Shown: positions 4,884 through 16,344 of the stretch, piece after piece
Numbering within the stretch: position 1 is the stretch's first letter
Layout of the letters: each line of letters begins with the position of its first letter
From: Spinellus fusiger
Lineage: Eukaryota; Mucoromycota; Mucoromycetes; Mucorales; Phycomycetaceae
Assembly: GCA_025094145.1 (NCBI GenBank)
Contig: JALLLS010000042.1
Location: 1-64,000 of the forward strand
Direction of reading: 5' to 3'
DNA: 64,000 nucleotides
Notes under the pieces: generated by a model
What the model was told of the DNA's origin: nothing
Seen by the model: only the letters and a program-made list of their open reading frames with translations
The model's database searches: none
Position numbers and translations under genes: made by a program

Positions 4884-6103
4884 TACACACCAGGAGATTT
4901 TTCTGGCCTTTAAGCGATGATATCTTCGCCCTTTAAAACCGAAAATTTCTTACCTTTTATGGAACTTCATTTAAAACAAAAGGTTTGTAGATATCAAAAA
5001 TAATATTTCTTTTTGTGGATACCTCACTATCAAATTGTATTATCAAAGACGACAATAGTGTTGATGAATAGAATTGTTTATTATAATAGTATAGATAATA
5101 CTATAGTATGACTATAGCTACTGCCCAAGTGCATTCCCTCATAGCAATAGAATCCACACCCTAAAATCCTTGTGATTTATCCTTGGGAGATAGATAAATA
5201 TGCTCAGGAGTATACCCCAGACATTATTGACCTTGTAGAAGACCACCTGGGACTGACTTGAAACGAGTCTTTACTTGCCTAATAACAATACAATGAGTGT
5301 CTTATGGAATACAATGAGCTCAAGCCCAGATGATGACACTATTTACCTTTTTATCTCTGGAATAGTCCTTGGTAGTGTCTATCACTTCCTTCTATTGTTT
5401 CTTTTTGTTAATAATGGCACATTACCTTGCTCACTTATGCTCATATTGACAAGTACTTGGGTGTCAAGTTGTAGAGACAGTATGAGAAATAACAAAAGAA
5501 TAACAGACCAAAAAATGAAAAATAGCTTTATTCTGGTAATGTATACACTAGCCTCCACTCATAAAATCCACAAGTCAAAATCCACAAGTCAAACAATTCA
5601 CACTCTATTTGCCTTGGGCCTAAAAGACAGTATTAGAACCAATATCTTGTTATCATTAAGCACTACTGTTAATACCAGTTACAATGAGATAATTGAGGTG
5701 ATTATAGATATTTAGTCAATAAATGAATACACTGTTCTTAATATAAGTAAGTTTGGTTCTATTTTATGGACAATGACCACTAGAGTTAACTCTATAAGTT
5801 CTATAATATATCTTTCTTAAGCAGTGTTATACTGCAAATACTATGGGCTTATAGTTAACACATTATGTTAAACAATAAATGCAGTGACTGAGTTGTAATT
5901 TTGGGGTGATTCTTGTTCTATTTCTTGTCTTTACAGCCAATTCTATACTTTTTAATTGCAAAGTCAATCGTCACTGCTTAAACAGGCAAGTAGAGTTTGA
6001 AATTGATCATTTAGACAGCGAAAAGGCCTTTTTAAACACATTAGCCAATCATAAGAATATTGCAATTTTATTCTCAGGATATTTCTTTATATATCCTAAG
6101 GAT
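3632..6103. repeat. Near-perfect palindrome formed by two inverted element copies
   Basis: Bases 3632-4787 are the reverse complement of 4948-6103, about 1,156 bp per arm around a 160-bp centre. Position p pairs with 9735 minus p. The ORFs on the two arms (4020-4460 minus and 5275-5715 plus) give identical 146-residue translations, so the arms are essentially identical. At the outer ends the match breaks into two similar but non-identical transposon termini (ATGTGTA on the left, GGTGTGTA on the right). The centre (4788-4947) holds two related but diverged versions of the element's 5' end facing each other. Confidence 0.92.
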
Positions 6104-6116
6104 CTCCTGGTGTGTA
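4884..6116 (+). mobile_element. Non-autonomous TIR transposon, right copy (1,233 bp)
   Basis: The copy starts TACACACCAGGAGAT (4884-4898) and ends with its exact reverse complement ATCTCCTGGTGTGTA (6102-6116). This is a perfect 15-bp terminal inverted repeat with TA at each outer edge, consistent with a TA target duplication. Its left 0.65 kb and right 0.15 kb match the Fanzor-carrying element at 13730-16075 at lower identity, but the Fanzor gene is absent and about 0.4 kb of different sequence lies in its place. It is best read as a non-autonomous derivative. Which transposase mobilises it is not visible. Confidence 0.85.
5293..5715 (+). CDS. Element-encoded ORF of unknown function, 140 aa
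   Basis: I do not recognise this protein. The first ATG in the open frame is at 5293, and the product begins MSVLWNTMSSSPDDD. A hydrophobic stretch follows (YLFISGIVLGSVYHFLLLFL, about residues 16-35), which could be a membrane segment. The inverted copy at 4020-4442 on the minus strand encodes the same residues. A diverged counterpart lies in the Fanzor element at about 14128-14277, where the reading NVLWNTMSTSPDEDTAYLFI is kept before a stop. That shared frame is the only sign of coding selection. It may instead be conserved for DNA or RNA structure. Confidence 0.3.
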   Translation: MSVLWNTMSSSPDDDTIYLFISGIVLGSVYHFLLLFLFVNNGTLPCSLMLILTSTWVSSCRDSMRNNKRITDQKMKNSFILVMYTLASTHKIHKSKSTSQTIHTLFALGLKDSIRTNILLSLSTTVNTSYNEIIEVIIDI

Positions 6117-13408: not shown

Positions 13409-14127
13409 CTCCACACACTTGCACACTTGCACTTGGACATTTGCCTGCTGTCCCTGCTGCACTACAGATGGACTGCACATCCACCCATAAACCTACATTC
13501 ATACTCATCTCTCTATAATGATTTCAAACAGCGACAGTGAGCAGGGCTTTTTGTTACGTGTCTGTGGGTGAGTGGGAGCATCAATGAAAAAAAAAAAAAG
13601 AAAACAGACAGTCTGTTCCCTAGAATGACGTCTGTAGACAGGCTCACTCACTTGCACCCAATTCACCCGTTGTTCAGTGGACTTGTCTTTTTATTATTTA
13701 TTTATTATTATTATTATTATTTATTTTACTACACACCAGGAGATTTTTCTGGCCTTTAGGCGGGGATATCTCCTTCCTTTTACGTCTAAAATTTCTTGCC
13801 TTTTATGGAACTGTATTTAAAATCAAGAGGTTTGCGGATATCTAAATAATTGTTTCCTTTTGTGGATATCTCAATATCAAATTGTATTATCAATAAAATA
13901 TATTGTTTATGAATAAAATTGTTTATTATAATAGTATAGATAATAGTATAGTATGACTATAGCTACTGCCCAAGTGCATTCCCTCATAGCAATAGAATAT
14001 ATACCCTAAAAACCTTATGCTTTATCCTTGGGAGATAGATAAATATGCTCAGTAGTACACCCTAGAGACCCTAGATAGTACAGAAGACCATCTGAGACTG
14101 ACCTGAGAAGAGTCTTAACTTGCCTAA

Positions 14128-14277
14128 TAATAATACAATGAATGTCTTGTGGAATACAATGAGCACAAGCCCAGATGAAGACACTGCTTACCTTTTTATC
14201 TCAAGAATACCCTCTAGTGGTGTCTACAACTTCTTTCTATTGTTTGTCTTTGTTAATAATAGTACATTACCTTGATT
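14128..14277 (+). pseudogene. Degenerate copy of the element leader ORF
   Basis: This frame reads NVLWNTMSTSPDEDTAYLFI and then runs to a TGA/TAG-type stop, matching the leader ORF of the small element (5293 onward) with substitutions at several codons. The reading frame is kept for about 45 codons across the two diverged copies. Function is unknown. Confidence 0.45.
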
Positions 14278-14459
14278 AGTTATGCTCATCTTGACAAGTA
14301 CTTGAGCGTTAAGTTGTATGTGCAGTGTGAAAAATAACAAGATAATAACAAGAACAAAGTATAAAAAATATTTTTATTCTGGTGAGGTAACAGTCCCATG
14401 CAAAAAATGAGTAGACAGCAAATCAATTTTCTATTTTTATTTTACAACTTATTCAAGCA

Positions 14460-14648
14460 ATGACTTCAAGCAATGAAAATCAGCCATCTCTTAGCCAAGA
14501 ACATGAAGATAGTCCCATCAAAAGAAGAGAGAATAATATGTCTATTAGAGATCAAATCACAGGACAATGGAAAAGACATGCTACTTATCAAGAGATTGCT
14601 GACACTCAGTTAAAGAACAACTATTACAACTATTGTATTATTCCATGA
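14460..14648 (+). CDS. Small ORF inside the Fanzor element, 62 aa
   Basis: The ORF begins with ATG at 14460 and has a polar N-terminus, then a segment (SIRDQITGQWKRHATYQEIA) that vaguely resembles the start of a helix-turn-helix. It lies upstream of the Fanzor-like gene and in the same direction, and could be a remnant N-terminal exon or an unrelated ORF. I do not recognise it and no partner motif confirms the HTH idea. Confidence 0.25.
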   Translation: MTSSNENQPSLSQEHEDSPIKRRENNMSIRDQITGQWKRHATYQEIADTQLKNNYYNYCIIP

Positions 14649-14983
14649 ATCTTTTATTATGAACATCTTTGACTGATAGATGTACCTTTATTTTTCAAAA
14701 TAAAATAAAAATAAAATTGATGTCTACTCACTTATTGTATGGGACTGTATATGTGCATAGAAAACCCATAGGATTCACAGTTTCCATTGATAGATATACA
14801 AGCTTTATGCTTTAACACAACTTCTTAGTTTTCAGATCACGGATTGAATCAATGGCATGTAAAACCCAATTATAAAACAGAAATAGTATAAAAAGAAAAA
14901 AGGTCAACTCATCTTTATTTTATTTTCTTCATGGAACCTGCTTTAAAGATGATGGCAATGAAAAGGTCAATCACTGGTATTGA

Positions 14984-15802
14984 ATAGAAGCCGAGTTATC
15001 TCTATCAGGACATACATCTTCAACAGTTAATTGTGAAAGGTTTGCAAGATACCTCGAGGAGAGAGCCGTAGTTACCTCAGTATTGCATAACTTTTATTCA
15101 AATGAAGATACTGCTGCTGTGGAAAACCAGAATGTCAATAGCTTGATCCTATTTCTTAGAATGAAGCTTTTGATCTTTATGAATCAGCAACAATCAGACA
15201 AACGGCTAGCTAGAAATCTTCGAAGAAAGTTTGGCAATGATGCTGTAATGGTGATTGGCAATTGGTCTGTAAGAAACACAAAGTTCCATGAACCAGTGAG
15301 AGGTGTTGGAATAAGAAGAATGTTGAAGAAAGAAGGGTTCAAGGTGTTCCTTATTGATGAGTTCAAAACATCTATTTTTTGTCCTTCTTGTAAGAACGGT
15401 GAGCTTGAGAAATTCAAGAAAGTACAAAACCCAAGACCCTTCAGAAGAGAGAAGAACCCCAGTGACATGTCATAGTATTTTAAGGTAAAAATACTCTTCT
15501 TTCTTCTATAAAAGTCAAAGAAAAGACTAGTTAGTTTATTATTTTTATTTTTATTTAGGTGCAAAAACCAACAATGTTTGAAGATCATGACTAAAACTGC
15601 TGGAGTTTCTGATGAGATAATTTCTCAACGCTTTTGGAATCGGGACATGGCAGCAACATTGAACTTTCGTCATGTTCTTTTTGGACTACGAGAGGAAGGC
15701 AAGCGACCCAAACGCTTTTGTCGATCCAAGATAGTACAGTCTGTTGGTACCAAAAGAAAGGAATCGCCATTATCTAGTAGTAGTCGATCCACCAAAACAT
15801 AA
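14984..15802 (+). pseudogene. Fanzor/TnpB-like RNA-guided nuclease, broken C-terminal part
   Basis: The frame at 14984-15475 reads ELSLSGHTSSTVNCERFARY, ARNLRRKFGNDAVMVIGNWS and then GVGIRRMLKKEGFKVFLIDE. The Glu at 15359-15361 (IDEF) fits RuvC-II. CPSC at 15380-15391 is the first half of the zinc finger. A one-base frame change near 15440-15460 is needed to continue as VTCHSILRC. A 74-nt GT-AG intron (15485-15558) then joins to CKNQQC, the second zinc-finger half. RFWNRDMAATLNF follows, with the RuvC-III Asp at 15644-15646. These motifs and their order match the fungal Fanzor/IS605-OrfB family. Stops upstream of 14984 remove the RuvC-I region. The gene is therefore inactive as it stands, unless the frame break is a sequencing error. 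Confidence 0.85.
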
Positions 15803-16344
15803 AAAAAGAATCCGGTGTAGTTATCACTGTACTAAACTAAGATACACGTAAGTCTTTTTGGAACCATACTACATCTCTATACTATAATTTCCCCAAAGAT
15901 GCACCAATACTTTATGAAAATAGTGTAGCTATTGCTAGAATAGGCAGACAGAGTTTGAAATTGTTCATTTAGACAGCGAAAATACCTTTTTAAAACACAA
16001 CAGCCAATTAGAGTAATAGTGTTATTTTATTGTCCGTGTATTGACTTTTATATCCCAAAAATCTTTAGGTGTGTATCCAATGTCTCTTTTATAGATTACA
16101 GGATACGTTCTATTGAATGAGGAGAAAGATACCTTTGTTTTGGTGTGTTTGCTCTTTAAAGTAGTATTAGAAGAATAAATAAGAGGAAATAAGATGGGTC
16201 TTTTTCTTTTCCTTTTCCTACAGTAACTAAGGCAACTCCACCTTAGTTCTTACTTCTCCAAGGGAAGGTGGGTGGCTCTTACAGTACACCACTGGATCTA
16301 TTTCAGACTCAGAAGTATCTTTCTCTGATGTTTATTATCGATTG

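Follow-up and report, generated by a model that had tools for sequence, protein, structure and literature searches.

The first 64,000 nucleotides of contig JALLLS010000042.1 of the fungus Spinellus fusiger, referred to here as the window, hold at 13730..16075 a dead copy, shortened by an internal deletion, from a large S. fusiger family of terminal inverted repeat (TIR) transposons, and within this copy the relic of a Fanzor1 gene. The bases outside the left end of the family members differ with the gene that is carried, in a manner suggestive of a target-adjacent motif (TAM). We regard it as somewhat better than an even bet that Fanzors are the copy-keepers of a CMCT-type transposon, and that two Fanzor lineages have left two TAM footprints, TTAC and TC, where the transposase-only sisters have left none. 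The features of the window copy that bear on this are as follows.

13726..13729, + strand: candidate TAM TTAC, read with the TA that follows; outside the element, in the left flank of the window copy
13730..16075, + strand: whole element, 2,346 bp, an internally deleted Fanzor1-bearing copy; CACACC...GGTGTG flanked by TA
13730..13748, + strand: left TIR, the first TA being probably the target duplication
13730..14389, + strand: left subterminal region of about 660 bp, common to a transposase-bearing sibling (L053) and to family members resembling miniature inverted-repeat transposable elements (MITEs)
14984..15475, + strand: exon of the Fanzor relic, with the RuvC-II Glu codon at 15359-15361 and CPSC at 15380-15391; frame shifted near its end
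15485..15558, + strand: predicted GT-AG intron splitting the zinc finger, read from the sequence by comparison with a fuller copy (L021)
15559..15802, + strand: last exon of the Fanzor relic, with CKNQQC, RuvC-III WNRD (NRD codons 15638-15646) and the stop codon TAA at 15800-15802
15803..16075, + strand: 3' non-coding region and right end, where the omega RNA scaffold would lie
16057..16075, - strand: right TIR, the last TA being probably the target duplication

Flank motifs of the Fanzor-bearing and transposase-bearing copies

Three classes of copy were compared after the removal of identical 8-mers. The Fanzor1-type left set (n=33) is made up of 25 paired copies, four copies with a left end only, the window copy, and L056, L059 and L108, whereas the second class, termed ghost-B (n=39), comprises copies that match L062 at the DNA level and, as judged from the motif CQSCGIVWNRDVNAS present in relatives of L062, probably carries a Fanzor relic. 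The transposase-bearing set (n=37) consists of 31 copies with a left end at a predicted position and 8 listed ends near the open reading frame (ORF), minus two that were identical. Fanzor loci with no readable left end (L009, L017, L018, L019, L025 and L026) were left uncounted, as were four or five further ghost-B-matching copies, the flanks of which end in C and never in TAC.

Left flanks of the Fanzor1 type read TTAC in 17 cases, TAC in 22 and TC in 4, with C at position -1 in 29 of the 33. For ghost-B, TTAC and TAC are both absent (0 of 39), TC is found in 22 and C at -1 in 32, while the transposase-bearing copies show TTAC once, TAC once, TC in 6 and C at -1 in 14 of 37. The right flanks, read outward, contain TAC once, TC once and C five times in the Fanzor1 type (n=28), and TTAC once, TAC twice, TC once and C six times in ghost-B (n=14). 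The enrichment of TAC in the Fanzor1 type relative to the transposase-bearing copies (Fisher test, 7.5e-09) and that of TC in ghost-B (3.4e-04) are mirrored by the corrected information over positions -4 to -1, which amounts to 3.64 bits for Fanzor1-type, 1.81 for ghost-B and 0.40 for transposase-bearing left flanks, and to 0.40 and 0.81 bits for the right flanks of Fanzor1-type and ghost-B copies. By permutation of class labels, the Fanzor1-type and transposase-bearing sets differ in information at 5e-05, the floor of the test, and in base counts at 5e-05, and ghost-B differs from the transposase-bearing set at 2.5e-04 and 0.002, respectively; base counts of the transposase-bearing left flanks and the Fanzor1-type right flanks do not differ clearly (0.42).

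A count made before the classes were fetched gave TTAC in 16/32 Fanzor1-type left ends, in 2/93 other listed left ends and in 1/100 right ends. Here, 7/100 left ends, one of which (at C58) may belong to a different copy, had been dropped because their 8-mer was that of a Fanzor copy, and of the two 'others' with TTAC one turned out to be of the Fanzor1 type (L108). Loss of query bases 1484-2042 from the gene leaves the motif in place in Fanzor1-type copies (TAC in 8/12, as against 14/21 of the rest), which resembles the ghost loci of SpuFz1 (PMC10432273).

A transposase alone should give no one-sided motif, because the inverted ends are near-identical. The motif is found on the left flank only and is specific to the nuclease lineage, as in the TAM logic of TnpB-like systems, the Fanzor nature of the second class being the weaker of the two. 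Since the transposase-bearing siblings represent a built-in control, it becomes possible to tell the Fanzor-linked footprint apart from target preferences of the transposase. Because the motif is one-sided, absent from transposase carriers and follows the Fanzor class, and because a parallel exists in Spizellomyces, TTAC(TA) is read as the candidate TAM of the Fanzor1-type lineage.

The transposon family and its ends

The window element has termini TACACACC...GGTGTGTA; it starts with TACACACCAGGAGATTTTT (13730-13748) and finishes with AAAAATCTTTAGGTGTGTA (16057-16075), forming a 19-bp inverted repeat with 3 mismatches. A DNA search of its own genome gave at least 125 matches (the best 40 of 2,006 candidates were scored), many of which begin at element base 1 or stop at base 2346, and both ends lie at these points in 25 of the 35 copy-holding stretches fetched, a few of them with substitutions. 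That this genome is S. fusiger or a very close strain is indicated by protein BDF14DRAFT_1746438, which over residues 38-539 is 100% identical to C17:10122-11663, a single stop falling within the match. Allowing at most one mismatch, the end pattern TACACACCNNNAGATTTTTNNGG is found 1,136 times in the 38.08 Mb searched and never in a reversed control, so the family ends are far beyond chance. Thus, the segment with inverted ends that had been proposed from the window alone holds up, with 25 other copies ending alike, and the genome-wide search that the earlier note called for yields copy boundaries coinciding with the TACACACC ends.

The same note inferred a Fanzor-bearing family with no separate transposase to be seen, and in this it was wrong. 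Among 20 further stretches fetched around family ends, L053 (C1:524040-528150, 4,111 bp) has ends as in the Fanzor family and a 915-aa open frame between them. Its positions 1-442 and 558-805 match 1-405 and 416-663 of L021, a full Fanzor copy, with a subterminal identity of 76% and 86% on the left and 80% on the right. The 915-aa protein has at least 61 matches in its own genome (the best 50 of 1,116 candidates were scored), and most of the long matches listed are 65-98% identical to L053. For 40 further copies of the ORF, chosen for a start that could be extrapolated and a left end that was not already listed, 650-800 bp at the predicted place were examined, and the family left end was found upstream in 31 and absent in 9. 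Of these 31 ends, 26 depart from the 23-base end by no more than one error (the search tolerated five), with a chance expectation of about 0.44 left ends, computed for the pattern with at most one mismatch only. The family accordingly has transposase-bearing and Fanzor-bearing members with identical ends.

The L053 ORF matched no Pfam family. It holds, in order, CRKC, HLLGH and ETERGEQFNK, corresponding to C(2)C, H(3)H and E; a regular-expression scan of 39 proteins found H(3)H in 19 and all three in order in 8, many of the others being fragments. The Pfam families Tnp2 (best E 1.9e-04) and Plavaka (best E 3.5e-04) each matched 2 of 16 proteins, while Plavaka had no match in the L053 ORF and one below the cut-off (E 0.005) in transposase P0002. 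A profile search of the PDB with the transposase alignment returned nothing at E<=1, and an AlphaFold2 model of P0002 (10 sequences) had a mean predicted local distance difference test (pLDDT) score of 47. Homologues of the L053 protein number at least 10 in one search and at least 32 in another, the named ones being mainly from Mucorales.

The CMCT group, consisting of EnSpm/CACTA, Mirage, Chapaev, Transib, Plavaka and ESTA, is characterised by C(2)C and H(3-4)H before the last E, CA..TG termini and a 2-5 bp target duplication (PMC12730594). In the S. fusiger family, 5'-CA..TG-3' termini are present as CACACC...GGTGTG inside TA, the TA itself accounts for a 2-bp duplication, and the L053 motifs, in their order ahead of the E, agree with C(2)C and H(3-4)H, which in the CMCT group lie between the second D and the last E. 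On these motifs, the transposase probably lies in or near the CMCT group.

The Fanzor gene in the window and in fuller copies

All the parts of a Fanzor gene remnant that had been noted in the window are present at the codons given above, the RuvC-II Glu within IDEFKTS, the four-Cys zinc finger split by an intron, and NRD. The reading frame of the relic shifts between about 15455 and 15475, and a deletion at about 14981-15001, seen by comparison with fuller copies, has removed the N-terminal half together with RuvC-I.

Five fuller copies of 3.5-3.9 kb were found (L011, L021, L022, L023 and L028), and in L021 a 479-aa open frame homologous to the window exon is kept. A phmmer search of the PDB relates this frame to solved Fanzor1 proteins, namely Parasitella parasitica Fanzor1 (9cf0, E 6.4e-128), SpuFz1 (8gkh, E 1.3e-44) and 9cer (E 2.6e-07). 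The frame holds LIDPGRRD and DEFKTSIFCPSC and, past the intron, CKNQQC and WNRD, and reading by eye finds in L021 the Fanzor1 pattern D-X(125,275)-[TS]-[TS]-X-X-C4 zinc finger-X(5,50)-RD (PMC3627910), the first D of which was lost from the window copy along with the N-terminal half. The identification of a Fanzor relic inside a TIR transposon is supported through L021. With regard to the profile search proposed for the window translation, the window coding pieces themselves remain below the Pfam cut-off (TNB, E 0.0089), and it is the homologous L021 frame that matches Fanzor1.

Homologues of the L021 frame number 243 at E<=0.001, and the named ones among the 120 listed are mostly from Mucorales, whereas within its own genome the L021 exon has at least 96 matches (the best 89 of 693 candidates were scored). 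The median pairwise ratio of nonsynonymous to synonymous substitution (dN/dS) is 0.455 (126 pairs, 17 copies), with single pairs among those listed ranging from 0.2 to above 1; the median points to past selection on the Fanzor protein.

The genome also holds other Fanzor lineages with long open frames, about 45-51% identical to the L021 exon. For instance, C2:336734-338218 and C110:854010-855476 are both 47% identical, lie in open frames of 641 and 663 aa and have no stops in the match. No family end was seen near either among the ends listed, the left ends on C110 being outside that list.

Insertion site

TA is found at both edges of the element, as had been pointed out before, and behaves as a 2-bp target site duplication; no longer duplication stands out at lengths of 3-10 in 45 paired copies. 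In the case of L010, a paralogous empty site is available, in that L057 contains, joined together, DNA similar to the two flanks of L010, with one TA after TAC (76% identity over 296 columns). This arrangement supports duplication of TA and the presence of the motif before insertion. No further convincing span was found in the fetched DNA.

A model for retention of TAM-flanked copies

The model that we favour, with a probability of about 0.62 for the model as a whole, is that Fanzor cutting followed by repair keeps TAM-flanked copies. The transposase would move all family elements by cut and paste into TA, those without a transposase in trans, and each Fanzor-type copy would express, from its right end, an omega RNA whose guide is the right flank. 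After excision, the closed donor site would read TAM (TTAC-TA or similar) and then the guide target, and would be cut by the Fanzor ribonucleoprotein (RNP), whereupon repair from the sister or homologous chromosome would restore the element. Only copies that had landed with a TAM on the left would be retained, and the TAM would therefore become enriched on the left side, differing with the Fanzor lineage. If true, the flanks would constitute genome-scale evidence that Fanzor shapes insertion survival in nature, with predicted TAMs of TTAC or TTACTA, and of TC for the second class.

Several observations weigh against this model. TAC is missing in 11/33 Fanzor1-type copies, and no fully intact Fanzor gene of the subfamily was seen, L021 having a frameshift and a stop upstream of its 479-aa frame. 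The Fanzor relic of ghost-B consists of a short motif and weak matches to known Fanzors (best E 0.003), a 13-bp gap interrupts the empty-site alignment near the junction, and transposase and Fanzor were never found within one element here. The closest solved Fanzor, PpFz1, has the TAM ATN rather than TTAC (PMC11423790). In addition, no conserved fold was detected at the right end when 28 copies were compared with column shuffles by alifold (z of 0.76, 0.83 and -0.09 for the last 80, 120 and 160 columns), nor did single-sequence folds reveal an omega RNA fold there. For several segments further upstream z was about -2 to -5, the energies being weak, and for the first 80 columns, into which the end of the gene extends, it was -14. 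Lastly, MITE-like copies without a Fanzor relic (e.g. L048, L054 and L057) have C at -1 in 9/15, a value between the classes that is not predicted by retention of TAM-flanked copies, and that, with the copies classed by eye, differs clearly from neither of them (p 0.22 and 0.15).

The MITE-like value lends itself to a different explanation, namely that separate transposase lineages move separate subfamilies, each with its own flank tastes, and that Fanzor is uninvolved. Lineages with different tastes could exist given the diversity of the transposase copies (65-98% identity to L053), and C at -1 is fairly common in general, being found in 68/100 left and 37/100 right ends listed regardless of content. 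However, the 37 transposase-bearing copies come from many places and show no motif (0.40 bits, as against 3.64 for the Fanzor1 type), and the bias is confined to the left flank although both ends are near-identical inverted repeats, such that we consider target choice by the transposase unlikely.

Insertion guided by Fanzor, in which the transposon enters at TAM sites that the RNP has opened or cut, would make the motif a preference of entry instead of retention. From the flank pattern alone entry and retention are inseparable, and the empty-site paralogue has TAC without an element. On the other hand, the guide comes from the right flank in the known logic of TnpB and Fanzor (PMC10432273), and the first 14 bases of the right flanks differ among the 45 paired copies, which argues that guides are not copied from target to target; guided entry is thus judged distinctly improbable.

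It is very doubtful that the motif belongs to the element itself, as the outermost part of a left end that extends further than the right end and has eroded in old copies. TTAC does directly adjoin the element in half of the Fanzor1-type copies, but the copies read hardly vary at terminal bases 1-8 where -1 to -4 are variable, the paralogous site without an element also reads TAC-TA, and the same left end in ghost-B and transposase-bearing copies is preceded by TTAC in 0/39 and 1/37, respectively. A reading as an ordinary Fanzor1 TIR element of the SPu-1 kind, in which the relics hitch-hike and Fanzor serves no particular purpose, has in its favour that SPu-1 likewise has TIRs, ghost loci, a conserved CA ahead of the left repeat and putative duplications of TA (PMC3627910, PMC10432273). 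It is scarcely credible given the transposase found here (none was found within the SPu-1 repeats; PMC10432273), the control isolating a Fanzor-linked motif and a median dN/dS that speaks against a pure hitch-hiker.

Nested element and other family members

Three further features of the window belong to the nested element or to the family at large.

14390..14748, no strand assigned: nested Tc1-like element, with inverted arms at 14390-14441 and 14697-14748 of 52 nt, 77% complementary
14460..14648, + strand: relic of a Tc1-type helix-turn-helix (HTH) ORF within the nested element
4884..6116, + strand: second family member in the window, 1,233 bp, non-autonomous, without Fanzor and partly like L053

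The nested element, with its own inverted repeats and HTH relic, is carried along inside many Fanzor copies, and its arms are matched in other copies at query rows 661-715 and 968-1022. L025 holds a longer homologue of the HTH ORF, whose match to Pfam HTH_SB (E 1.9e-05) is below the cut-off. Tc1/mariner was rejected as the outer transposon, the only Tc1-like sequence seen being this nested relic and the ORF between the outer ends being of the L053 type. The 4884-6116 copy is apparently an internal-deletion derivative of the transposase element. Foldback-like members with inverted left ends at both sides also occur (L044, 650-2850; L047, 695-1361).

In Choanephora cucurbitarum, a transposase-like gene model (P0010, 1,081 aa) has a C-terminus, at about 976-1060, that resembles a Fanzor zinc finger. 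Support for this candidate as a joint transposase-Fanzor gene is weak, with E-values of 1.6 (Pfam TNB), 0.08 (blastp) and 0.56 (profile) and nothing in the PDB, and it was not used.

Comparison with known systems

The natural role of Fanzor is stated as unknown in PMC10432273. A close parallel to the S. fusiger family is SPu-1 of Spizellomyces punctatus, a Fanzor-only TIR element without a transposase that was already known (PMC3627910), and in which SpuFz1 has a measured TAM, CATA, that fits a conserved CA before the left repeat, the ghost loci sharing this CA (PMC10432273). Both systems have Fanzor1 between TIRs, putative duplications of TA, conservation just ahead of the left repeat and many gene-less ghosts. 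They differ in TIR and flank motif (CA in SPu-1, TTAC here), in that no transposase was found between the SPu-1 ends (PMC10432273), and in that the S. fusiger family has two flank motifs that follow two Fanzor-type classes.

In the case of PpFz1 (9cf0), the best PDB match to the L021 frame, the parts occur in the same order; the alignment is broken between residues 357 and 361 of the L021 query, at which point PpFz1 is longer by about 100 residues, and these extra residues may represent its FRI insertion. The resemblance to IS200/IS605 TnpB lies in a motif confined to the left flank with a free right flank (PMC10432273, PMC10711439), but a single-strand TnpA acts in those elements, unlike the TIRs, TA duplication and CMCT-like (DDE-type) transposase of the S. 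fusiger family.

The family resembles the CMCT group in the C(2)C, H(3)H and E motifs of its transposase, the CA...TG termini and the 2-bp TA duplication; matches to Pfam Plavaka and Tnp2 are few and weak, and the placement is by motifs. The suggestion in the earlier note that the host transposon type may be undescribed is thus only partly sustained, since motifs, termini and TA fit CMCT, while no paper placing Fanzor in this group was found in a literature search that covered part of the Fanzor papers. Fanzor and Plavaka/EnSpm were seen together only in an algal preprint that names them as separate repeats, and no literature on S. fusiger transposons was found among the papers searched. A CMCT host for Fanzor may already be noted in the Science Advances survey of 2023. 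The word Fanzor is absent from the main text of PMC12730594, hAT and Crypton are added to the Fanzor-carrying kinds by PMC10711439, and PBl-1, PBl-2, MCi-1, ROr-1 and ROr-2 (Phycomyces, Mucor, Rhizopus) are not named in the main text of Bao and Jurka.

Fanzor1-only TIR elements, their TA duplications, left-flank motifs and ghosts were already known. What is new, as far as the searches go, is the CMCT-like partner together with a control that ties the flank motif to the class of Fanzor, which makes S. fusiger suitable for testing whether Fanzor retains copies, and thereby for testing the natural role of Fanzor.

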